From positions 1 through 38,444 of the forward strand of contig CAIRTR010000180.1 of the NCBI GenBank assembly GCA_903881565.1: a DNA stretch of 38,444 bases, in the 5' to 3' direction. Both the position numbers and the translations under genes were made by a program. Positions 1-36,029 of the stretch are shown here, piece after piece. The stretch is from Oligoflexia bacterium (GTDB taxonomy: Bacteria > Bdellovibrionota > UBA1018). Positions within the stretch are counted from its first letter, which is position 1, and every line of letters begins with the position of its first letter. The notes under the pieces are model-generated. The model saw only the letters and a list, made by a program, of their open reading frames with translations, did no database searches and was not told where the DNA came from.

Positions 1-270
1 ATGACCACGGCACCTTCGATTCTTCGGGCTTACGCCTTTCAAGTAGGTGATCTTTCGGGGTACCGTCAATACGAAGATAATCGATTCTTCAACGTCATTC
101 TCGAATCGACGACGGAACCCTATATTTACTTCGATCGACAAACTTCTCCCAAAAACAAACGGAGCTGGGCCTCACGACTTCAAACCTATTTGGAGCTCGC
201 ACGCCTGGATAAACGCGAGCGTGAACTCGCGGAGTCAATCCGCGAAGACATTCTCAAGGAGTTCAAATGA
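1..270 (+). CDS. AbiEi-like antitoxin, C-terminal part (probably cut by window edge)
   Basis: The visible 89 residues start with ATG at base 1, but this Met may be internal, because AbiEi-type proteins usually have an N-terminal winged-helix domain that is missing here. The end of the protein (QTYLELARL, then an Arg/Glu-rich helix with AESIREDIL) resembles the C-terminal helix of AbiEi family regulators, which typically read 'vqlYlDL..ggRgeeaAe.lr..il'. In that family the antitoxin represses the operon and counters a nucleotidyltransferase toxin. The stop codon overlaps the next start (ATGA at 267-270), so the two are translationally coupled, which fits an antitoxin-toxin pair. The family call rests on weak similarity plus context. 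Confidence 0.55.
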   Translation: MTTAPSILRAYAFQVGDLSGYRQYEDNRFFNVILESTTEPYIYFDRQTSPKNKRSWASRLQTYLELARLDKRERELAESIREDILKEFK

Positions 271-1154
271 CACGCAATCCAAATGACCAACTCCTTGCCC
301 GTCTCGTCGAGTTCCAGCGTGAGCTTGAGAAAGAAAAAATTCCGCTCATCTTGGGTGGTGGCATGAGTTTGTACGTGAGAATGCAATATCTTCGAGCCGA
401 AGTCTCGGTTCGATATCCGTTTGCGATCGAAACGCGCTCGACCAACGATCTCGATCTTTTCTTGGCTTCGTCGCTGATAGCCGATGCGGAGAAAGTCGAA
501 AAATTACGGGAAATCATTACAAGACTTAGCTACACCGTTGATTCGAATGCCAAGAATTTCCAATTTGTAAAAGAAGTAGAAATCTACGGTAGCCGCCACC
601 AGGTGCGCATTGAACTGCTAGCTGCTCCGCCTACTGAGGCGCAAATGAGCAAGGTCGACGTCAAAGGATTTCGAATCAAGCCTGTGGGGGTCGACAATAT
701 TCATGCTTACCTCACGGCAAGTGCTGGCGGCATTGATATCGGCCTTCTTCAAGTAAACGTTCCTGCCGGCGGTTCTTCGGAGGCCACAATCACAATCCCT
801 TCAGCCTTCAACTATCTCATCCTCAAGCTTCATGCTTTCGATGATCGTAAATCAAAAAAGGACGCAAAAAGCGACGAAGGACGCCACCATGCATACGACA
901 TTTTTGCCACCGTCACGCGAATGAACGAGGACGATTGGAGCAACGCGACCACTCACCTCAAATCACAATCCGGCAGCGACTATCTCCAGCGCGCAATCCA
1001 AATTCAGAAGGACTGCTTTTCGTTCCGCAATGCGATCGGACTTCTGCGCATTCAAGAAAACGAAGCGTACCGCCGCAATCACGCGACCTATGATTTGTAC
1101 CTAGATCAGTTCATCAAAGACATGACGGACCTATTTCAAGGTGGAGGTGCCTGA
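267..1154 (+). CDS. AbiEii-like nucleotidyltransferase (type IV toxin candidate)
   Basis: The 295-residue protein has the nucleotidyltransferase signature of the AbiEii/AbiGii group: a Gly-rich turn (LILGGG, residues 28-32), then TNDLDLFL with the metal-binding Asp residues at 61 and 63. Further on lies a basic/acidic block near residues 190-215 (LKLHAFDDR, KKD, HHAYDIF) that matches the late conserved motif (KL.A..DR..KD..D) of the family. Members transfer nucleotides, in some cases to tRNA acceptor ends, and act as toxins in type IV systems or phage abortive infection. The start is fixed by the ATGA overlap with the upstream gene. Toxicity and target are not shown by the sequence; the length is normal for the family. 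Confidence 0.72.
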   Translation: MTRNPNDQLLARLVEFQRELEKEKIPLILGGGMSLYVRMQYLRAEVSVRYPFAIETRSTNDLDLFLASSLIADAEKVEKLREIITRLSYTVDSNAKNFQFVKEVEIYGSRHQVRIELLAAPPTEAQMSKVDVKGFRIKPVGVDNIHAYLTASAGGIDIGLLQVNVPAGGSSEATITIPSAFNYLILKLHAFDDRKSKKDAKSDEGRHHAYDIFATVTRMNEDDWSNATTHLKSQSGSDYLQRAIQIQKDCFSFRNAIGLLRIQENEAYRRNHATYDLYLDQFIKDMTDLFQGGGA

Positions 1155-1321
1155 AAATGAAAACAACGACATTTCCCTGCATTTCACGGGCTTTCGCGAG
1201 AAATATTTTGCAGCCTTTGCTTTCGCTCTTGAACATCCAAAGCGCCCCGCCTACAATAGGACAGAACGAGCCGCAAGTAGGCGGAATGATTGTGAGTGCG
1301 TCGATTGAGCCAACAAAATCA

Positions 1322-1349
1322 TTGGCACCCTTCTTACCATCTCTATATA
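1322..1349 (+). promoter_or_regulatory. Candidate sigma70 promoter for the FAD oxidoreductase
   Basis: TTGGCA (1322-1327) and TATATA (1344-1349) are separated by 16 bp. The start would be near 1356, giving a leader of only about 10 nt before ATG 1366. No clear ribosome binding site precedes that ATG, which agrees with a very short leader. The rest of 1155-1365 shows no supportable gene. Confidence 0.4.
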
Positions 1350-1365
1350 GTCAAAAGAACAACCT

Positions 1366-2682
1366 ATGCCGCACCTAAATCCCCTCAGCTCTCACGAAAC
1401 AAAAACCACTCGCATTGCCACGCAGCTTCGCGAGCGCACAAGCACACAACCCCTCTCCTTGCGCAAGACCGCCGTTTCGCACATGGTCCCAAAAGCCTTC
1501 GATAAAAAATACAAAGACGAAAAGATCGACATCAGCGATCTGAGCGCGATCCTCGAAATCGATCCCGAAAAGAAGTTTTGCGTCGCCGAACCCGGAGTAA
1601 CCTTCGTCGATCTTGTTAAAGCGACACTCCCTCTGGGCCTGGTTCCCATGACCGTGCCCGAATTCAAAACCATCACCATCGGTGGTGCCGTTGCGGGATG
1701 CTCCATTGAATCCATGTCGTTTCAGTACGGCGGTTTTCATGACAGCTGTTTCGAATACGAGGTCATAACAGCTGACGGTCGCGTGCTTACTTGCACGCCG
1801 GATAACGAACACAGCCTCATTTTTCAGATGATGCACGGGACTTTTGGAACCCTGGGAATCATTTCCAAACTCAAATTTCGACTAGTCCCCGCAAAGCCCT
1901 TCGTCAAAGTGATCTACGAGAAGTATTCACATGTAGAGTCCTACGAGTTGGCGATTCGAAGACACTTCAAAACCCGCGACGTCGACTTCATGGATGGCTT
2001 CGTCCATTCACCAACTTTGTATGTGCTGAATCTGGGCGTCTTCGTGGATCAGGCACCCTATCAGAATCGCTATGATTGGATGAAGATCTACTACCAAACT
2101 ACCGCTACTCGCGACGAAGACTACCTAAGAACCCCTGACTATTTTTTCCGCTACGACCGTGGTGTGACAGGCGTCAGATTCAGCTCCTTTTTTGGACGTC
2201 TATTTTTCGGAAAATTCGCTTCATCTTCGCACATATTGAGGTTGGCCGAAAAAATCCATTGGCTACTCCCTCGCAAGCGCCCTACGGTAACGCTTGATAT
2301 CTTTGTTTCCATTTCAAAGATCAAAACGTTCCTTAAATGGTATGAGCATGAATTTCAACATTTCCCACTCTGGGTGGTTCCGTACAAACGAACACGAGAC
2401 TATGAATGGGCGAATAAATCGTTTTACGAAGCCGCGGGAAGCGACGAACTCTTTGTGGATCTCGCCATCTACGGCATGAAGCAACGTGGCGATAAGAATT
2501 ATTACCGGATCATGGAAGAAAAATTAATGGAAATCGGCGGAATCAAAACACTTATCTCCCACAACTTTTATTCAGAAGAAGAATTCTGGAAAAACTGGAA
2601 CAAACCCAACTACGACCAAGTCAAAGCGATAACGGACCCGAAGGGTATGTTCCGGGATCTCTATCAAAAAACCTGTCGCTAA
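1366..2682 (+). CDS. DHCR24/DIM-like FAD-linked oxidoreductase
   Basis: A 438-residue FAD-binding-4 type flavoprotein. It contains RKTAVSHMVP (about residues 33-42), the AEPGVTFVDLV and TITIGGAVAGCSIES blocks (FAD-contacting region, about 75-120), FHDSCFEYEVITADG and HGTFGTLGIISKLKFRLVPAK. The C-terminal half (YEKY, YYQTT, DYFFRYDRG, FPLWVVPYKR, EEFWKNWNKPNYD) follows the plan of Delta24-sterol reductase (human DHCR24, plant DIM/DWF1) rather than glycolate or lactate oxidases. It lacks the N-terminal membrane anchor of the eukaryotic enzymes. Bacterial homologues are known, but their substrate is generally unassigned; an isoprenoid or sterol-like lipid is a guess from homology. No sterol biosynthesis genes are nearby. 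It is convergent with the next gene, with a 10-bp gap. Confidence 0.8.
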   Translation: MPHLNPLSSHETKTTRIATQLRERTSTQPLSLRKTAVSHMVPKAFDKKYKDEKIDISDLSAILEIDPEKKFCVAEPGVTFVDLVKATLPLGLVPMTVPEFKTITIGGAVAGCSIESMSFQYGGFHDSCFEYEVITADGRVLTCTPDNEHSLIFQMMHGTFGTLGIISKLKFRLVPAKPFVKVIYEKYSHVESYELAIRRHFKTRDVDFMDGFVHSPTLYVLNLGVFVDQAPYQNRYDWMKIYYQTTATRDEDYLRTPDYFFRYDRGVTGVRFSSFFGRLFFGKFASSSHILRLAEKIHWLLPRKRPTVTLDIFVSISKIKTFLKWYEHEFQHFPLWVVPYKRTRDYEWANKSFYEAAGSDELFVDLAIYGMKQRGDKNYYRIMEEKLMEIGGIKTLISHNFYSEEEFWKNWNKPNYDQVKAITDPKGMFRDLYQKTCR

Positions 2683-2692
2683 ATTTCTAGTT

Positions 2693-3139
2693 TTAGTGAG
2701 ATTTAGACTTCTTAATTGAACGCCGCAGAATCGAATCAAGAGATCCCGAACTTATAGAAGAGCCATCTTCAGATCTGCAGAACGTCTGCTCATTGCCCTT
2801 GGAATCTCGACCCGACATAACCGAGTTACCCAGAAGCTCAGTGCAGATGAGCGAACCCGGATTCTGGCCTCCAACGCTTCTTAGTTTTCCGAGATCTTTT
2901 TGATATTTGCCACTTTGAAGATCTTGCATCTGAGAGAGGATTTTGCACTTTGACGCAGGCTTTACCCCAGGATCAGCAAAGCAAACTGCACTGACCCAAG
3001 CCTGAAAATCTGAATCAAGCTGAAACCGCTGCCCTTGATCAGTTCCGAACCGATAAAAGACGCTCTCTGCCGTTGCCCCATAAACCGAGGCCGCAACAAA
3101 CGCCTGAAACAAGGCCAAAAAACCAATCCACACCTTCAT
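2693..3139 (-). CDS. Small secreted Cys-containing protein coupled to the C1 protease
   Basis: A 148-residue protein with an N-terminal signal peptide (MKVWIGFLALFQAFVAASVYGA, cleavage probably near residue 22). The mature part has four Cys, two near residues 53-64 and two in the C-terminal half (NPGSLICTELL and TFCRSEDGS). The second half loosely resembles DUF333-type exported domains (NPA.x.C...G...C...DG), but this is not firm. Its ATG overlaps the stop codon of the upstream papain-like gene by one base (TAATG), so translation is coupled and the products are likely made in fixed ratio. Possible jobs are inhibitor, chaperone or partner of the protease. The C-terminus is Lys/Arg/Ser-rich. 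Confidence 0.7.
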   Translation of the reverse strand: MKVWIGFLALFQAFVAASVYGATAESVFYRFGTDQGQRFQLDSDFQAWVSAVCFADPGVKPASKCKILSQMQDLQSGKYQKDLGKLRSVGGQNPGSLICTELLGNSVMSGRDSKGNEQTFCRSEDGSSISSGSLDSILRRSIKKSKSH

Positions 3140-4584
3140 TATGGTCCTGCCTTTTGCTGCTGGTGAAGCACAGACAGATCAAAGGTATTCTTTGCCAGCG
3201 TATCATCGGGAATCCACAGCTTGCCGCCGTCGCAAAGCGCTCCTTTTTCTCGACACCAATCTTTACCCCAGGAATTTTGAATCAGATACTCCGTTTTACA
3301 GCTGCCATCCGCTGCGCGCGATTTTCGATACCCGATCATTGTAACCGCATGAGCTCCATGCGCGGGATAGTACGCACTGGAACAGCCGCTTCGTGAACCT
3401 TCAGCGCCCGATTCAATATGTTCAAACCGATCATAACTAAAATCGGCGAGGGCCGCAGAACAAAGCGAAATACCAACAGCCTTGCCTTTTCGTAACTGCC
3501 CCAACGCCTGGTCACGATACGCATCCTTTACAAGTCGAAATTCCTCTGCGCTTGAGGATTTGTCCTTGCCCAAAAATGATTTGGGAACAAAGTAATCCAT
3601 GCACGTTGTTCCCTCTGGAATTTTCAGCGCGTCCTTTTCACAGGTGGGAGCGAAGGCTCGCTCGAAGAATTCCTGTGGGCTTAAATCTATGGATTCTCGC
3701 ATCTGAACCAAAATCGCCATTGCCTGCCCGTGTCCAATCCCACCCTGTTTTGAGATTTCCTCAAAGCTTTTGAGGATCGGATCCAGATAACAGACATCCT
3801 GCTCGGTAAGAACGGATTCGTATTTCTTGGGTCCCAAAAGCCAGAACTTCTTTGAAAAAAGTTTTTCTGCTGCTTCGAGGTAGGCTGCACCAATGACCTC
3901 ATCGGTTTGAACGCCACTGACCTTCGATAGCCTCTTTTGTGCCTCACTCTCAATGTAATCCGTCAATTTTTTAAAGGACTGCTTCACCTGCGCCCATTGC
4001 TTCACAGAAGCTTCTTTTTCCGCGCTACCCGGGGGGAAAAACTGCCCCCGTATACTCGCTAGGGCATCCGCCCATTCCCCTAGCGCATCGGTTCCCTTCT
4101 TCTGCAACAGCGGGCTGTAAACATATCCAAGTCTTTCGATCGATACTGATTTTCGGCTACAAATACGTCCCTTTTTTTGTGCAGCTTGGATCGCATCGCA
4201 GACAAACCCTCCCTCAAAGTAGAGAGATTTATCTTTTTCTTTGGCCGACTTCACAAATGCCGTTCCAGAGACGCCAGAAGCACTCGTTCCAATTGCCAAA
4301 TCCAGATACGAAACCGCAGGATGACCAGGGATCACTGACTGAAGCATCAACGAGGCGGTATTGGCGTAACAGACGCCTAGGCCATCTTGGTCTTGCATTT
4401 CTGCTGAAGCGACCGTTCCTCCTGAGGCATCCAGTCGCACAGTCTCCTCTTCGCAAGTTTGGGTTGATGCATTTGCAGGAGCCGCTTCGTCGGCGGTGGC
4501 AAAAGAAAGCATCCCGACCCAGATTAAGGCGGATAGAATACCGATATATTTTGTCGGGGTCCCGGACAAGCCCATCCTACTCAT
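3139..4584 (-). CDS. Secreted papain-like (C1 family) cysteine peptidase
   Basis: 481 residues with a hydrophobic signal segment (about 14-31, ending FATA). The catalytic set of clan CA is visible: the oxyanion Gln at 66 and Cys72 in the motif QDGLGVCYANTAS (papain has CGSCWA; here Trp is Tyr), His412 in GAHAVTMIGY and Asn437 in LIQNSWG. The region between them is about 340 residues, much longer than papain's, so there is a large insertion of unknown fold. It has many Cys, consistent with export. It is the first gene of a two-gene unit with the small secreted protein at 2693. The start could also be Met4 (MGLSGTP), which would hardly change the signal peptide. A role in extracellular or periplasmic proteolysis is inferred. 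Confidence 0.85.
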   Translation of the reverse strand: MSRMGLSGTPTKYIGILSALIWVGMLSFATADEAAPANASTQTCEEETVRLDASGGTVASAEMQDQDGLGVCYANTASLMLQSVIPGHPAVSYLDLAIGTSASGVSGTAFVKSAKEKDKSLYFEGGFVCDAIQAAQKKGRICSRKSVSIERLGYVYSPLLQKKGTDALGEWADALASIRGQFFPPGSAEKEASVKQWAQVKQSFKKLTDYIESEAQKRLSKVSGVQTDEVIGAAYLEAAEKLFSKKFWLLGPKKYESVLTEQDVCYLDPILKSFEEISKQGGIGHGQAMAILVQMRESIDLSPQEFFERAFAPTCEKDALKIPEGTTCMDYFVPKSFLGKDKSSSAEEFRLVKDAYRDQALGQLRKGKAVGISLCSAALADFSYDRFEHIESGAEGSRSGCSSAYYPAHGAHAVTMIGYRKSRAADGSCKTEYLIQNSWGKDWCREKGALCDGGKLWIPDDTLAKNTFDLSVLHQQQKAGP

Positions 4585-4722: not shown

Positions 4723-5424
4723 ATGACCGAAATGTCCGATTACCCGAAACTCGAATGTCCCTTTGTTCGAAAAACCTATCCGATCAGCAAAGAAGACTGG
4801 AAAAAGCATGGATCCGAACTTCAACTGCGCACGCCCGAAGTTTACTTGGTCACACCTGAGGTGAGCCCAGGATTTGAATGGGTATTTGAGGACTCCGAAA
4901 CAATCGCGGTCGAAAAACTTGACGGCAGCAATGTCAAAATGAAAATCGAGAACGGACGACTCGTCGCGCTCCAAAACCGAAAAAACATCATCGATCCGCT
5001 TCAAATCGGACACGGCAAGACGTTCATTATTGAGGGTGTCTTTCGAGCCCTCGACAAGGGCTACGACTTCAAGGACGGCGAACACGCGGGCGAGCTCATT
5101 GGACCTAAACTTCAGGGCAATCCCTACCAACTGGATCATCACATCTGGTACCCGTTTGAGAAAACGATTTCCTCACTGAGTTATAAAACGTACCAGGAAC
5201 ACCCCAAGACTTTTGAGAACTTGTCGGAGTGGTTTAGATTATTCCTCAGAAGCCGTTTTTATCAAAAAGAGCGGAAAATCAAATTTGAGGAATCAATTTT
5301 TGCCGAAGGCGCCATTTTTTATAACTTCAAACGAAAAGCAGAAGGCAAAAGCTGGCAGGCGAAACTTCGCCGCAACATGTTTGATTGGTATTACAAAGAC
5401 AAGATTCGAATCGAAGGGATCTAA
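4723..5424 (+). CDS. ATP-dependent RNA ligase family protein
   Basis: 233 residues from ATG 4723, chosen because GGAG (4713-4716) lies 6 nt upstream; an upstream TTG at 4675 and ATG at 4708 lack such a site. The nucleotidyltransferase motifs of RNA/DNA ligases are in order: motif I EKLDGSN with the adenylated Lys at about 65, NGRLVALQNR after it, motif III-like GELIGPKLQGNPY, the HIWYPFE segment, motif IV EGAIFYN and motif V KLRRNMFDWY. The GPKxQGN form resembles small stand-alone RNA ligases of the PF09414 type. Such enzymes seal RNA nicks or repair cut tRNA. There is no kinase/phosphatase partner or CCA-adding gene next to it. It is convergent with the next gene (9-bp gap). Confidence 0.8.
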   Translation: MTEMSDYPKLECPFVRKTYPISKEDWKKHGSELQLRTPEVYLVTPEVSPGFEWVFEDSETIAVEKLDGSNVKMKIENGRLVALQNRKNIIDPLQIGHGKTFIIEGVFRALDKGYDFKDGEHAGELIGPKLQGNPYQLDHHIWYPFEKTISSLSYKTYQEHPKTFENLSEWFRLFLRSRFYQKERKIKFEESIFAEGAIFYNFKRKAEGKSWQAKLRRNMFDWYYKDKIRIEGI

Positions 5425-27684: not shown

Positions 27685-30600
27685 TTATATAGAAGCTACT
27701 GCTTCAACAGCCGGAGACTGCTCAATCATCACTTCATCTTCAACCACTTTGGCTTGAAGCTGCTTGTAATGTGGCAAGCCTGTTCCAGCAGGAATCAAGC
27801 GACCCATGATTACGTTTTCTTTCAGACCGCGCAGGTAATCGACTCGGCCTGCAATGCTGGCCTCGGTGAGAACCTTCGTCGTTTCTTGGAACGAAGCTGC
27901 GGAAATGAAACTATCCGTACTCAAAGACGCTTTTGTGATCCCAAGCAACATCGGTTCAGCCATAGCGGGAGCACCGCCGGCCTGCATGATCTTCTGATTT
28001 TCAGCATCAAAAGCCATTTTTTCGATCTGCTCGCCTGGAAGGAACGTTGCGGAATCGCCGACATCCTTGATCTTCACCTTGCGCAACATCTGGCGCACGA
28101 TGGTTTCAATGTGCTTGTCGTTGATCTTCACACCCTGCAAACGATAGACTTCTTGCACTTCATCTACCAGATACTTGGCCAGGGCCTTTTCGCCCAAAAC
28201 TCGCAAAATATCGTGTGGATTAATAGGTCCGTCCATCAAAGGCTCTCCGGCTTTCACGAAGTCACCTTCGTTTACAGCCAAGTGGCGACCTTTACCGATG
28301 AGATATTCTTTTTTCTCACCAGCTTCAGGAGTCACTTCAACTTTACGTTTGCCCTTGGTATCTTTACCGAAGGAAACGATCCCGTCGATTTCGCTGATCA
28401 CAGCTGCATCTTTAGGTTTACGTGCTTCGAAGAGTTCGGCAACGCGAGGGAGACCCCCGGTAATATCCTTGGTCTTTGTCGTCTCGCGATGGATCTTAGC
28501 GATGATATCACCGCCCTTGATCTGATCCCCATCATTCACGATAAGGTTGGCACCCATTGGCAGCATGTAACGAGCGACTCGATTGGTTCCTTCAATTTTA
28601 AGGACATTGCCGGCACCATCGGTTACCAGAAGCTTCGGACGCTTGTCACTGGCTTTGGATTCCACAATAACCTTGTGGGAAAGACCCGTCACACTGTCGA
28701 ACTGCTCTTGCATCGTCAAACCTTCTTCGATGTCTTCGAAACGAATGACACCCGAAGCTTCAGTTACGATCGGTGTAGAATAAGGATCCCACTCAGCAAT
28801 CAACTTCGCTTTGTCAATCGCATCGCCATCGCGAACAACGAGTTTCGCCCCATAGACGATAGAATACTTTTCTCGCTCGCGTCCGTTAGAATCCAAGATC
28901 GCCAGTTCCCCGTTTCGATTCATGACGGTCAGGAAGCCTTCTTTGTTAACAACCGTATTAAGGTTGATGAACTTGACCTTCCCTTTTGTTTTCGACTCAA
29001 GGCTAGACTGTTCTGCGCGTCGTGAAGCAGTACCACCGATGTGGAAGGTACGCATCGTAAGCTGGGTTCCAGGTTCACCGATAGACTGAGCGGCAATAAC
29101 GCCGACCGCCTCACCGTTATTAACCATGCGTCCGCGTGCGAGATCGCGGCCGTAACAAAGGCTGCAAATCCCCTTCTTGGACTGACACGTCAACACCGAG
29201 CGAATCCGGACGCGATCAATGCCTGTCTCGTCGAGCTTCTTGACAAGATCTTCAGTGATTTCTTGATTTGCTTCGACGATCGTTTCGTTTGTCACGGGAT
29301 CAATCACTTCATCCAAGGTCACACGACCCAAGATCCGATCGCCCATCTTCTCGATAACTTCGCCACCTTCAATCAAAGCACTTACGTACAAGCCATCAAG
29401 CGCTCCGCAATCTGGCTCCGTCACGATCACGTCTTGAGAGACATCAACGAGTCGTCGAGTCAAATATCCGGAGTTAGCGGTCTTGAGAGCGGTATCGGCC
29501 AATCCCTTACGTGCTCCGTGTGTAGACACGAAGTATTGCAACACTGAGAGACCTTCGCGGAAGTTAGCAACGATCGGAGTTTCGATAATCTCACCAGAAG
29601 GCTTTGCCATCAAACCTCGCATACCTGCGAGCTGACGAATCTGAGCATTACTACCTCGGGCGCCCGAATCAGCCATCATGAAGATCGAGTTAAAGGCTGG
29701 GCCAGTAACTTGAGCATCTTTATTGGCGTGATTAGGTTTCCAACCCACTGGCGCCTTGAAAGTCTGAACAGACAACTGCTTCATCATGGCCGAAGCAATT
29801 TGTTCAGAGGTCTGGGCCCAAATGTCGATAACTTTATTATAACGTTCGCCGTCCGTAATAAGTCCTTCGATATACTGATTTTCGATTTCATGAACTTGGG
29901 CGTAGGCCTGATCCAAGAACGCCTTCTTCTCATTGGGCATGGACATGTCATGAATGGAAATAGAAATTCCAGCTCTCATGGCTTGTTTGAAGCCTGTTTG
30001 CATCAAATGATCGGCCAAAAGAACGGTCTTCTTGTTTCCCGTCAAACGATAACAAGTGTCAATCAACTCAGCGAGATCCTTTTTACCTAACACTTTGTTA
30101 TAGGCAGAAAATGGAATCTCCTCTGGAACAATCTCGGACAACAACACGCGTCCAACAGTCGTTTCGTAAAGTTTTCCAGATACACGGGCGCGAATCTTGG
30201 TTTGAAGACCCACAACGCCCGTATCGTAAGCAAAATGAACTTCTGCAGGACTCGAGAAGGACTTCCCTTCTCCCTTCCCATAAGGACGTTCGCGGGTCAT
30301 ATAATAGAGACCCAAAACGATGTCCTGACTTGGAACAATAATTGGCTTCCCATGAGCGGGCGACAAAATATTGTTGGTCGACATCATGAGAACGCGGGCT
30401 TCAATCTGCGCTTCAATCGAAAGCGGAACGTGCACCGCCATCTGGTCACCGTCGAAGTCGGCATTGAAAGCCGCACAAACGAGGGGATGCAACTGGATTG
30501 CTTTTCCTTCGATCAGGACAGGTTCGAATGCCTGAATACCAAGACGGTGCAAAGTAGGTGCACGGTTCAACATCACCGGATGTTCGCGCACTACTTCCTC

Positions 30601-31836
30601 GAGAATATCCCAGACTTCTTGGCGCTGTTTTTCGACCATTTTCTTCGCAGACTTGATAGTCGTGACATAGCCGTATTCAGAAAGTTTATTGTAAATAAAG
30701 GGTTTGAAGAGCTCAAGTGCCATCACTTTGGGCAATCCGCATTGATGAAGCTTCAACTCAGGACCCACGACGATAACGGAACGACCGGAGTAATCGACGC
30801 GCTTTCCAAGCAAGTTCTGTCTGAAGCGACCTTGCTTACCCTTAAGCATGTCGGAGAGAGAACGAAGCGGGCGTTTATTGGGGCCCGTAAAGGTCTTGCC
30901 GCGTCTACCATTATCAAAAAGGGCATCCACAGATTCCTGAAGCATCCGCTTTTCGTTTCGGATAATGATTTCGGGTGCGTTCAATTCCATCAAACGTTTC
31001 AAACGATTGTTACGATTGATAACTCGACGGTACAAATCATTAAGATCTGACGTTGCGAATCGGCCACCGTCCAGCGGGACAAGAGGGCGCAATTCGGGTG
31101 GAATCACAGGAATCACATCCAACATCATCCACTCAGGCTTATTCGTAACGCTGACTTTCAGCGCTTCAACGACTTTCAAACGCTTTGAAAGCTTCGTGCG
31201 TTGAGCTTCAGAGTTTGTCTGCTTCAAATCCCGGCGAAGTTGTCGAGATAGGAGTTCAACATCAACCTTCTTGAGAATGTCCCGAATCGCTTCTCCACCC
31301 ATGGCTGCCGTGAAGGTGAAACCCTCTTTAACCATCTGAGTGTATTTTTCTTCGGAAACGACAGAATTTTCTTCAAGCCCGCTATTGCCTGGATCCAAGA
31401 CGAGATAGGCTTCGCAATAGAGAACTTTTTCCAGATCCTTCAGAGTAATATCCAACAACGCTCCGATGCGCGAAGGCAAGGAACGCAAGAACCAGATGTG
31501 TGCGACTGGGGTCGACAATTCGATATGTCCCAACCGTTCACGGCGTACTTTCGACTGAATAACTTCAACGCCGCACTTCTCACATACGACGCCTCGGTGC
31601 TTCATCCGCTTGTACTTACCGCAGTTGCACTCATAATCCTTGATAGGTCCAAAGATCTTGGCACAGAACAAACCATCACGCTCTGGTTTAAATGTCCTGT
31701 AATTGATCGTCTCGGGTTTCTTTACTTCCCCAAACGACCACTCCCGAATTTTTTCGGGAGAGGCCAAGGAAATTCGAATTCCTGTAAAGCTCAGTGGATC
31801 TTTTGGTTTGTCGAAAAAGTTTAGAAGGTCTTTCAT
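27685..31836 (-). CDS. rpoC: RNA polymerase beta-prime subunit
   Basis: 1383 residues, a normal length for the proteobacterial type without large insertions. Seen: the N-terminal zinc site ([22 protein letters not shown]), the catalytic [12 protein letters not shown] with three Asp for magnesium, the second Cys set ([18 protein letters not shown]), and [11 protein letters not shown] near the trigger-loop region. It forms the clamp and catalytic centre with the beta subunit. It is the last protein gene of rplKAJL-rpoBC; the gap to rpoB is 62 bp. AGGG stands about 10 nt before ATG 31836. tRNA-Val follows immediately. Confidence 0.99.
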
Positions 31837-31898
31837 TGTTAGCCCTCGCCTTAATTAATCAAGAATAACTGTTTTGTAACTTGTAACACGCTTGCAGC

Positions 31899-34800
31899 CT
31901 AGTGAACGTCTGCCTGAGCACCCTTATCATCTTCAATCAATTCAACGTTCAGAGCCAAACTCTGAAGTTCCTTGACCAAAACGTTAAAGGATTCGGGAAG
32001 TCCCGGCTCCAACAACTGCTCACCCTTCACAATCGCTTCATACATGCGATTACGACCGGTAACATCATCGGATTTAACCGTGAGGAACTCCTGAAGTGCG
32101 TAAGCGGCGCCATAAGCCTCGAGCGCCCAAACTTCCATCTCTCCCAAGCGCTGGCCCCCGAACTGTGCCTTGCCCCCCAGCGGTTGCTGAGTCACAAGAC
32201 TGTACGGACCAATGCTACGAGCATGAATTTTTTCTTCAACGAGATGGTGCAACTTCAACATATACATCACACCGATGGTGACTTCTTCAGCGAACGGATC
32301 GCCTGTCACACCATCGAACAATGTAGTCTGTCCACGAAGAGGCAGCTGGGCTACTTTGAGCATCTTTTCAATATCATTTTCCGACGCGCCATCAAAGACA
32401 GGGGTCGAAACATGAATACCTTTTCTCAAATGCGAGGCCATCTTCTTCACGTCGTCATCAGAAGCCTTATCAAGATACTTATCAACTTCAGGGTTGGAAT
32501 AAGTGTCTTTGAGAACCTTTCGGAGCTTCTCGCCATTGAAATTTTCCATGTAGGCGTTGACGCGCTCACCAATTCCGTGCGCGGCCCAACCCAAGGTCAC
32601 TTCAAGCAACTGTCCGATATTCATTCGTGAAGGAACGCCCAATGGATTCAAGACCATGTCCACAGAGGAACCGTTGGCCATGAAGGGCATATCTTCCATG
32701 GGCAGAATGCGGCTGACCACACCCTTGTTACCATGTCGACCTGCCATCTTATCGCCCACTTGCAAACGACGTTTGATTGCGATCTGAACCTTGACCATCT
32801 TGATCACGCCTGGAGCAAGCTCGTCACCACGTTTCAATTTGTCCGTCTTGTCTTTGAACACATAGCGAACAGCTTCGATCTTCTCTTTGGCCGTTTTCAT
32901 AACCAAGGTTACTTCTTGCTCAAGCTCATCCTTCACGGGAATGAAGCCCAACAATTCAAACGGAATCAGAGAAAGAGTGTCCCGATCAAGCTTCTGCGCC
33001 TTCTTCAACAGCTCTTCTGAACCATCTTCTGAAAGCAATTTGCCAGTCGTGGAAGCCCCTTCGAGCGATTTAGCAATCTTATTGAAAGCAGACTGCCGAA
33101 TTGCCTCAATTTCGATCTTCTCATCGCGACGAATCGTTGCGATGTGCTCTTCAAGAATCGCAGTAGTACGCTCATCAGGCTCAGTCCCTTCGCGAGCAAA
33201 CACTTGCGCATTGATAACAATCCCTTGAACACCCGAGGGTACCCGAAGAGAGGTATCACGCACGTCGCCGGCTTTTTCGCCGAAGATCGCACGCAAAAGC
33301 TTTTCCTCAGGTGATAACTGGGTCTCACCTTTTGGAGTCACTTTACCTACGAGAATATCACCAGGCTTCACTTCAGCGCCAATGCGTATAATCCCGCTAC
33401 TATCCAAATCCTTCAGCGCTTCTTCGCCGACATTTGGGATATCTCGAGTAACATCTTCTTTACCAAGCTTGGTATCTCGAGCGACACATTCAAACTCTTC
33501 GATATGAATCGAAGTGAAAGTATCTTCTTTGATAATTCGCTCAGAAATCAAAATCGAGTCTTCGAAATTGTAGCCACCCCAAGGCATGAACGCTATGAGG
33601 ATGTTTTGCCCCAACGCCAACTCACCGGCATCGGTTCCTGGTCCGTCAGCCAAAACGTCTCCCGCCTTAACCTGGTCTCCAATATGAACAACAGGTCTTT
33701 GCGTAATACAGGTATTTTGGTTGGAACGCTGATACTTCGTTAGATTATAAATATCGACATCTGATCCAACTTCATCCGTTTTGAGCGCCGCTCGCCTCAC
33801 GACAATCTTGGTCCCGTCGACCATGACGATTTCACCGTCATATTTCGAAAGAATGATCTGTCCCGAGTCGCGAGCCACAATGCGTTCAATCCCGGTTCCT
33901 ACGAAAGGAGCCGAAGTCCGAATCAAAGGCACTGCCTGACGTTGCATGTTCGAACCCATCAAGGCTCGGTTAGCATCGTCGTGCTCGAGGAAAGGGATCA
34001 AAGACGCCGCGATCGAGACCAACTGGTTCGGCGAGACATCCATGAGCTCGACTTCGTCTGGATTGACGAGAGCAAAATCCCCTTTTCGTCGAGCAGAGAC
34101 GAAATCGGAAGGCAACTTGCCAGTTCGCAGAGACTCAGGGGTCACCTGAGCGATAACCTTGTTCTCCTCTTCAGTCGCAGTGAAGAACTTAAGATCCGCA
34201 CCGATCTTACGACCCGTTACAACGTGGTAAGGAGTTTCGATAAAACCGAAATCATTCACACGAGCATAGGTTGAAAGACTCGCAATTAAACCAATGTTTG
34301 GACCTTCAGGAGTTTCAATCGGACAAATACGACCATAGTGAGTGTTGTGAACGTCACGAACTTCAAAGCCAGCTCGTTCACGGGTCAAACCGCCCGGTCC
34401 AAGAGCTGAGAGTCTTCGCTTGTGCGTTACTTCAGACAATGGATTGGTTTGATCCATAAACTGAGAAAGCTGACTCGATCCAAAGAACTCTTTCACGACC
34501 GCAGCCACTGGCTTTTGGTTGATCAAATCATGGGGCATGAGCGTTTCAACTTCTTGAATGCTCATACGTTCTTTAATGGCTCGTTCCATACGTACCAAGC
34601 CGATACGATATTGATTCTCGATCAACTCACCGACAGCACGGACACGGCGGTTACCGAGGTGATCGATATCATCGATCGTGCCTCTGCCATTATTGAGCTC
34701 GCAAAGGTAAAACATTGTCGCAAGAATATCTTCTTTGGTCAGAATCGAACTCTCGGCTGAAGTCGTATTCTCAGGAAACTTATAATTCAACTTCAATCGC

Positions 34801-36029
34801 CCTACCTTCGAGAGGTCATAACGATCAGGATTGAAAAATAGGTTTTCGAAAAGCTGTTTTGCAGCCTCAACAGTTGGGGGATCCCCTGGGCGCATACGCT
34901 TATAGATTTCGATTAACGCCTCTTCAGGACTAGAAACCTTATCAATAACCAGCGTTTCGCGAATAAAAGGACCATAGGTAAGATTATCGGTGAAAATGAC
35001 CTTCACCTCTCTCACACCACGCACTTTAAGTTCTTCTATTTTCTTTTCACTTAATTCATCGTTACACTCAAGAAGTACTTCGCCCGTCTTTTCGTCAACG
35101 ACATCTTCCGACGAAACTCGACCGAAAACAGCCTCTAAAGGAACTTCAAAGCGCTTAATTCCTGCGTCCTGAATTTTCTTGATAACAGCTTTAGTAAATT
35201 TACGATTCTTTCGTACAATGACTTCTTCAGTCTTCGGATCTAGAATATCTTCTTCAGCTCGTTGTCCCGAAAGAATTTCAAGATCAACAGCTTTGTAATA
35301 CTTTCCATCTTTATCAAAAGAAAGTTTCTCAGCACGATAGAAATAATTCAGAATTTCATGAGGAGACATTCCCATTGCACGCAAAACAATCGTGGCAGGC
35401 AGCTTGCGCTTGCGATCGATACGAGCATGGACAATATCCTTGTGATCGAACTCAAAATCCAACCATGATCCACGATGAGGAATAACTCGTGCAGAATAAA
35501 GGATCTTGCCGCTGGAGTGAGTCTTCCCTTGATCGTGATCAAAGATGACCCCAGGAGAACGATGGAGCTGACTCACGATAACGCGCTCAGTTCCGTTAAT
35601 AATGAACGAACCCGCTTCAGTCATCAGCGGGATTTCACCCATATAAACTTCTTGCTCTTTGATGTCTCGAATATTGCGAGTTCCCGTTTCCTCTTCAACA
35701 TCGTAAACCACGAGTCGAACAGTGATCTTCAAAGGTGCGGCGAAGGTCATCCCCCTCTGGCGGCACTCACCAACATCGTACTTAGGTTTCTCGAGAACGT
35801 AGCTTTCGAACTCAAGTGAAGCCGTACGATTGAAGTCCTCAATCGGAAACACAGACTTAAACACGGCCTGTAGGCCGGAATCATCCCTTTTACTAGGGAG
35901 AACATCAGCCTGCAGAAACTTCTCGTAGCTCTTGCGTTGGAGTTCAATAAGATTAGGAATCTCCACAGGAGAACTAATTTTAGAAAAATCTTTTCGAATA
36001 CGGCGGTTTTCAGCGAACAAAGACGCCAT
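31899..36029 (-). CDS. rpoB: RNA polymerase beta subunit
   Basis: 1376 residues. The rifampicin-binding region reads [21 protein letters not shown] and LSALGPGG, with the Asp, His and Ser residues of the sensitive type kept and only a Thr for Asn change next to them, so no classic resistance change is seen. [17 protein letters not shown] and later [25 protein letters not shown] and the C-terminal [24 protein letters not shown] are conserved. It catalyses RNA synthesis with RpoC. GAGGAG stands 5 nt before ATG 36029. Confidence 0.99.

Follow-up and report, generated by a model that had tools for sequence, protein, structure and literature searches.

Why should the gene that encodes a small exported protein with four cysteines begin on the last base of the stop codon of an exported papain-like protease, and what might the one protein do to the other? 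The pair in question lies in a 38,444 nt stretch of DNA from an Oligoflexia bacterium of the phylum Bdellovibrionota, the whole of which is called the window here. The small protein is very probably a dedicated partner of the protease. That it is an exported inhibitor, by which the cell protects itself from its own enzyme, is a reading to which our analysis gives roughly even chances.

The gene pair in the window

The features of the pair are collected in Table 1. Both open reading frames were found where the original prediction had placed a C1 protease stop overlapping a four-Cys gene start, with the protease stop TAA at 3141-3139, the ATG of P0002 at 3139-3137 and its stop at 2695-2693 (ORF calls, minus strand); 5 nt separate the SD-like AGGCAGGA (3152-3145) from that ATG. 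The residues that had been named, Cys72 and His412 in P0001 and four Cys in P0002 (53, 65, 99 and 121), are all present, as are Gln66 and Asn437. The two-gene unit is isolated, with a convergent neighbour on its left (1366-2682, plus strand, FAD-binding) and a divergent one on its right (4723-5424, plus strand, with an RNA-ligase match under the cut-off).

Table 1. Positions of the protease gene, the partner gene and their elements within the window
Feature	Position	Strand	Basis
C1 (papain-like) cysteine protease P0001, 481 aa, predicted exported	3139..4584	minus	PF00112 at 21.6 bits, conserved residues, model
Four-Cys partner protein P0002, 148 aa, predicted exported	2693..3139	minus	ORF, alignment, model
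TAATG junction, one base common to protease stop and partner start	3137..3141	minus	sequence
SD-like AGGCAGGA of the partner gene, within the protease gene	3145..3152	minus	sequence
Catalytic Cys72 codon	4369..4371	minus	conserved alongside Gln66, His412 and Asn437
Export signal at the protease N-terminus, hydrophobic, at about residues 13-32, cleavage estimated	4489..4548	minus	sequence, model helix 13-25, hydropathy
Insert modelled as helices, at about residues 148-311, between the catalytic Cys72 and His412	3652..4143	minus	model; papain-core alignment 45-477
DUF333-like C-terminal half of the partner, approximate	2747..2872	minus	family-level PF03891 matches; P0002 alone without a match

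Protease and small partner are both predicted to be exported, as had been proposed, because the N-termini of P0001, P0002 and their families are hydrophobic: by hydropathy this holds for 78 of 89 small proteins and for 68 of 76 proteases, while among their internal stretches the counts are 0 of 54 and 2 of 76, respectively.

Elsewhere in the window, an NTP_transf_8-type nucleotidyltransferase gene with a sub-threshold AbiEii match lies between two short ORFs (267-1378, plus strand), and with them is possibly a toxin-antitoxin-like unit. On the minus strand, ORFs of 1383 and 1376 aa follow one another at 27685-36029.

The protease

The sole Pfam match of P0001 is Peptidase_C1 (PF00112), its 21.6 bits standing against a cut-off of 20.7, and 15 of 76 relatives match the same family at E<=0.001; a profile of 36 relatives retrieved solved papain-type enzymes, the best of them a 'cysteine protease' (3ois, 2.5e-10). 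The catalytic order Gln-Cys-His-Asn is kept (Gln66, Cys72, His412, Asn437). When the window's own protease was aligned with 75 of 92 other protease ORFs (17 were omitted by hand), Gln66 and Cys72 proved invariant in all 76 and His412 and Asn437 at least 90% conserved. Among the paired proteases the Gln and the Cys are each found in 62 of 62, the His in 61 and the Asn in 59, all exceptions save one Asp being gaps, while Cys 44, 142, 315 and 375 are present in 52, 51, 62 and 61 of the same 62.

Over residues 45-477 the structural model of P0001 (pLDDT 81, pTM 0.83) aligns with proteins of papain fold, the best of them at Z 19.7 and rmsd 2.9 over 210 aligned residues and cathepsin S at Z 19.3. 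Foldseek places a bacterial dipeptidyl aminopeptidase and bleomycin hydrolase first, with aminopeptidase C among the top rows and Lpg2622 in the top ten, at low TM-scores. By its residues, modelled fold and Pfam match P0001 is a C1 (papain) protease, and it is predicted to be proteolytically active. It resembles papain, bleomycin hydrolase and aminopeptidase C in its catalytic Gln, Cys, His and Asn and in its model fold; it differs from C1 enzymes in apparently having no room for an N-terminal propeptide, in a Tyr for Trp after the Cys, and in a helical insert of variable size.

The first of these differences follows from the structure alignment, in most rows of which residue 1 or 2 of the mature enzyme matches P0001 residue 45. 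With residue 45 as the mature start and the signal estimated to end near residue 32, about a dozen residues are left, so an N-terminal pro-domain could scarcely be accommodated and P0001 presumably has none. The missing propeptide is not peculiar to pairs, because unpaired proteases have a similarly placed active Cys: the start of the active-Cys motif could be read in 10 of 12 unpaired loci (L087-L099), and it lies at 47-86 in nine of them and at 241 in L095.

The other two differences had been singled out in the original prediction. The Tyr beside the active Cys is indeed there, but as an oddity of P0001 it must be given up, since Tyr is what the family usually has at that position (51 of 62 paired and 11 of 14 unpaired proteases). 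The long insert between Cys72 and His412 is likewise real, but its description as being of unknown fold does not stand: the whole-protein model resolves it into helices (about 148-311) within a papain core, and the Cys-His spacing of 340 falls inside the family range of 216-550 (n=76). In papain the same stretch is shorter, at 134.

The four-Cys protein

P0002 alone matches no Pfam family, DUF333 (PF03891) included, and a weak match to T_cell_tran_alt lay under the cut-off and was treated as noise. By BLAST, 17 of 58 related genomes contain relatives of it, at 28 places in all, the window's place counted. None of the four Cys varies among the 89 aligned small-protein members (89 of 90, a 267-aa ORF with an over-extended start being omitted). 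At the level of the family, PF03891 is matched by 19 of the 28 members at E<=1 and by 39 of the 89 at E<=0.001 (best 1.7e-16), and the C-terminal half shares with DUF333 the pattern NPxS..C...G...C...DGS. P0002 is probably a disulfide-bonded protein in which an added N-terminal half precedes a DUF333-like half.

In the reverse direction, the small-protein profile was searched against 349 genomes from the phylum to which Ca. Nitrotoga belongs, which we take to be Pseudomonadota, and gave 15 matches, over profile positions 54-131 (the DUF333 half) only; all ten that were scanned are DUF333 over the Pfam cut-off. The 15 ORFs are 76-150 aa long, and by eye 11 have a lipobox-like start and 12 an EW motif. 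Such a start occurs in 1 of 89 small proteins of the window's family, which is distinguished from DUF333 of the other phylum by its added N-terminal half and two more Cys. As the matches cover the DUF333 half only, the full four-Cys protein goes unseen outside the window's phylum in this one other-phylum sample. Nor is there a convincing C1-like gene in the 1.5 kb flanks of the 15 loci, the one match (E=0.55) being to a 67-aa ORF. Three distant C1 genes retrieved by a scan of genome contigs, from Ca. Nitrotoga, a Betaproteobacteria MAG and a Rhodobacteraceae MAG, have no small gene at E<0.1 in their flanks, and their whole genomes have no profile match. A search of a plasmid collection with one small protein (L043) gave no match.

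The model of P0002 (pLDDT 90, pTM 0.78) is mixed alpha/beta and has no clear solved look-alike: Foldseek returned no PDB row at E<=0.001, and the best VIA match reached Z 2.8. Hence no inhibitor fold backs the inhibitor claim, and absence from these fold-match lists rules out no family. Among the papers listed, titles and the openings of abstracts give no description of this protease-partner pair and no such role for DUF333. A released DUF333 protein appears as a listed entry in PMC12502724; PMC10318531 was discarded as a DUF333 source, its available text concerning DUF3335, and the available part of PMC12546842 mentions neither cysteine nor papain nor DUF333.

Linkage across the phylum

In the window's order, all 29 small-protein places adjoin a C1-like protease. 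This count covers the window and 40 regions of relatives, 13 of which were centred on protease matches without a listed small gene, with L094 among them giving another pair. In the rest of the phylum a C1-like gene adjoins 57 of 61 small-protein places, in 60 regions around the strongest small-protein matches (chosen nearly by E-value among the matches listed, a few being skipped); a 58th pair can be recognized by eye at L180, where a truncated papain-type start (profile E=2) stands at the contig end, and a C1-like neighbour is absent at L142, L143 and L160. On a recount over both strong sets, the largest distance between small gene and C1 gene is 182 nt. The window's genome (4.6 Mb) held 20 protease candidates at first look, five of which were scored, and from that density chance adjacency would be expected at about 1% or less. 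Recurrence of the pair in relatives had been put forward as a check on the original prediction, and it is found both within the order and beyond it; together with the co-diversification described below, such nearly constant adjacency in the strong sets gives strong support to the idea of a partner.

The arrangement of the two genes is more variable than their association. Over 90 places the protease comes first in 52 and the small gene in 32, with 2 divergent and 4 without a profile match. The 84 same-strand pairs, with starts taken as the most upstream possible, overlap by 4 bases in 28 and have a gap or overlap <=25 in 67, while the 1-base overlap seen in the window recurs in only 6. A TAATG junction is therefore rejected as a general rule, and fixed-ratio synthesis through it, as first suggested, does not hold in general, the overlap being so infrequent and the small gene so often leading. 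An ORF carrying both parts was not found among 90 small and 107 protease ORFs. Other arrangements include a second pair in the window's own genome (L074:5253-6715; G000:C146), whose small gene is intact and whose protease frame is split into two ORFs; two or three tandem C1 genes ahead of one small gene (L162:547-3262 and L164:1-3562); and a small gene flanked by two C1 genes (L153, L170 and L182).

Weaker small-protein matches are less often linked, in 14 of 20 regions and 9 of 20 regions of two hand-picked samples. An adjacent C1 gene is missing in the first at L201, L203, L204, L209 and L212, and L210 has no called small gene; in the second, seven regions (L260-L266) belong to a separate family, L250 and L253 have no C1 gene, and the C1 gene stands two genes off both in L251 and in L267, the latter being the same place as L204.

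Counted from the protease, linkage is much looser. Of 42 distinct protease places, at least 20 have a small gene, among the matches listed, no more than 1.5 kb away. The original prediction had held that absence of the small gene beside homologous proteases would speak against a partner, and such absence is what the other 22 places present among the matches listed, the rest being paired. The protease profile, scored on at most about five candidates per genome, is found in at least 243 of 339 genomes of the phylum and the small-protein profile in at least 126. With 20 of 42 protease places having a small gene, as against 86 of 90 small-protein places having a protease, it appears to be the small gene that depends on the protease and not the reverse.

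Co-diversification

Distance matrices of protease and small protein correlate at r=0.64 over 81 of the 86 pairs, those with a protease ORF of at least 330 aa, whereas random pairing gave r of at most 0.095 in 1000 shuffles. Shuffling paralogues within genomes is the more demanding comparison, with a mean of 0.53 and a maximum of 0.63; none of 2000 such shuffles reached 0.64, by a margin that is small over the best of them and that draws on only 12 genomes with more than one pair. When nearest neighbours are compared instead, the signal is weak, with agreement in 35% as against 29% for shuffles. The trend is for each small protein to go with its own protease.

Small genes without a C1 neighbour

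With L180 and the family of L260-L266 set aside, 11 distinct small-protein places have no adjacent C1-like gene (L142, L143, L160, L201, L203, L204, L209, L212, L250, L251 and L253). At four of them an HExxH protein is encoded directly upstream on the same strand (HEARH in L203, HELFH in L212, HELLH in L204/L267 and HEYLH in L251). By eye all four have an export signal; none has a Pfam match over the cut-off, the best sub-threshold one being to a metallopeptidase-toxin (0.014, L251). HExxH is not rare, occurring in other genes of the same regions too (L254, L257-L259 and L261). L204/L267, L251 and L212 look like one cluster type, composed of an HExxH protein, a four-Cys small protein and a protein of ~670 aa (L251:314-5827, L267:1612-7080, L212:195-4922), and on the far side of the HExxH gene both L251 and L267 have a divergent C1 gene. 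In L203 (2663-4634) the four-Cys small gene follows that of a 488-aa HEARH protein without a Pfam or PDB sequence match. A different neighbour is seen in L142 (2980-4297), where the small gene lies 7 bp before a convergent trypsin-like gene (Trypsin_2), and in its relative L143 (3111-5901), where the trypsin-like gene (Trypsin_2) is farther away. As partners of small proteins, the HExxH and trypsin-like neighbours are suggestive only.

The separate family of L260-L266 is an exported protein of ~145-180 aa in a fixed context within one genus, matched mostly over its C-terminal half; one scanned member has a sub-threshold DUF333 match, and there is no protease profile match nearby.

Known pairs of protease and small protein

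An exported protease with a small linked protein is a type of pairing already known, to which a DUF333-derived partner family would be new. In the available part of PMC3462683, Bacteroides C10 proteases have exported staphostatin-like Bfi and Bti proteins encoded up- or downstream across short gaps, with btiB situated between two protease genes. The window resembles them in having an exported papain-like protease adjoining a small exported protein; however, C10 enzymes have a propeptide region and Bfi/Bti are predicted to be mainly beta-sheet and staphostatin-like (PMC3462683), whereas the window's partner is DUF333-like, has four invariant Cys and is a putative inhibitor. Staphopain-staphostatin and SpeB-Spi likewise have protease and small partner coded and transcribed together, but by the same account those inhibitors are thought to be cytoplasmic (PMC3462683), while both products of the window are predicted to be exported. 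P0002 thus shares with staphostatin and Spi a gene beside a papain-fold protease and, on its predicted export, not their cytoplasmic location. From what is available of PMC4686830, Bd3460 of Bdellovibrio is a periplasmic inhibitor co-transcribed with an endopeptidase. The Bd3459/Bd0816-Bd3460 system, that of a predatory bacterium, is like the window's pair in joining an exported hydrolase to a co-encoded periplasmic inhibitor (putative in the window), and differs in that its target is a peptidoglycan DD-endopeptidase and its inhibitor fold is ankyrin-based (PMC4686830).

What the partner may do

We hypothesize that the two-gene unit yields two exported proteins, one of them a papain-fold protease whose catalytic residues are intact. 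Its catalytic domain would begin almost at the end of the signal peptide, leaving no N-terminal pro-domain to silence it; staphopain and SpeB enzymes, by comparison, have propeptides. On the reading that we favour, the small partner would bind the protease in the periplasm and keep it in check until release or export, and the cell would in this way be spared digestion by its own enzyme. Binding, inhibition and periplasmic action are all steps that we infer. A dedicated regulator would fit the near-constant linkage, its persistence in either gene order, the conservation of the active sites and the apparent lack of a pro-domain, and the HExxH neighbours are a mild argument against an inhibitor specific to papain-like enzymes.

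Much of this evidence could also be read in favour of a folding helper dedicated to the protease. As a propeptide in trans, or steric chaperone, it would be what the pro-domain-less enzyme requires for folding and disulfide formation in the periplasm. The protease has little room for a propeptide of its own, its linkage to the small gene is tight, and its Cys 44, 142, 315 and 375 are conserved. That 22 of 42 protease places lack a listed partner, on the other hand, suggests that the fold can probably form alone, a mild argument against an obligate foldase, and we regard such a helper as unlikely. The same shortage weighs on a subunit with a structural or targeting role in a secreted enzyme complex, serving as an adaptor to substrate or surface, because about half of the protease places do without the partner among the matches listed; in addition, none of the 90 small and 107 protease ORFs fuses the two parts. 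Predicted export of both proteins and their co-diversification would agree with a subunit, and the appearance of the same small family after an HExxH protein in one cluster type would suit a general adaptor, yet on balance we find this role quite improbable.

Short gene overlaps are common in bacterial operons, and the looser linkage of the weaker small-protein matches is what one might see if this were an ordinary operon of two unrelated exported proteins. Such an operon would, however, have to accommodate adjacency at all 29 places in the window's order and at 57 of 61 beyond it, with either gene leading, co-diversification exceeding that of the within-genome shuffles, and 15 DUF333 genes of another phylum without a C1-like neighbour, and we consider it very improbable indeed. 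Dedicated partnership is the reading that we retain, with inhibition as its candidate function.

Implications for DUF333 and the phylum

DUF333 is in Pfam a domain of unknown function. That a DUF333-derived protein recurs beside an exported protease makes that function accessible to assays of binding and inhibition, and would give the domain its first testable role. It is tempting to speculate, tentatively and with more doubt than confidence, that the DUF333-derived four-Cys proteins are new exported peptidase regulators, dedicated in this phylum to exported proteases that are chiefly papain-like, with some beside putative zinc (HExxH) and perhaps trypsin-like peptidases, and by extension that DUF333 lipoproteins elsewhere regulate peptidases of the envelope. 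If the partner is an inhibitor, an exported cysteine-protease inhibitor without a clear solved look-alike would have been found, and this in Bdellovibrionota, a phylum in which self-protection from secreted hydrolases has been studied, as far as the available part of the source goes, for one endopeptidase system (PMC4686830).
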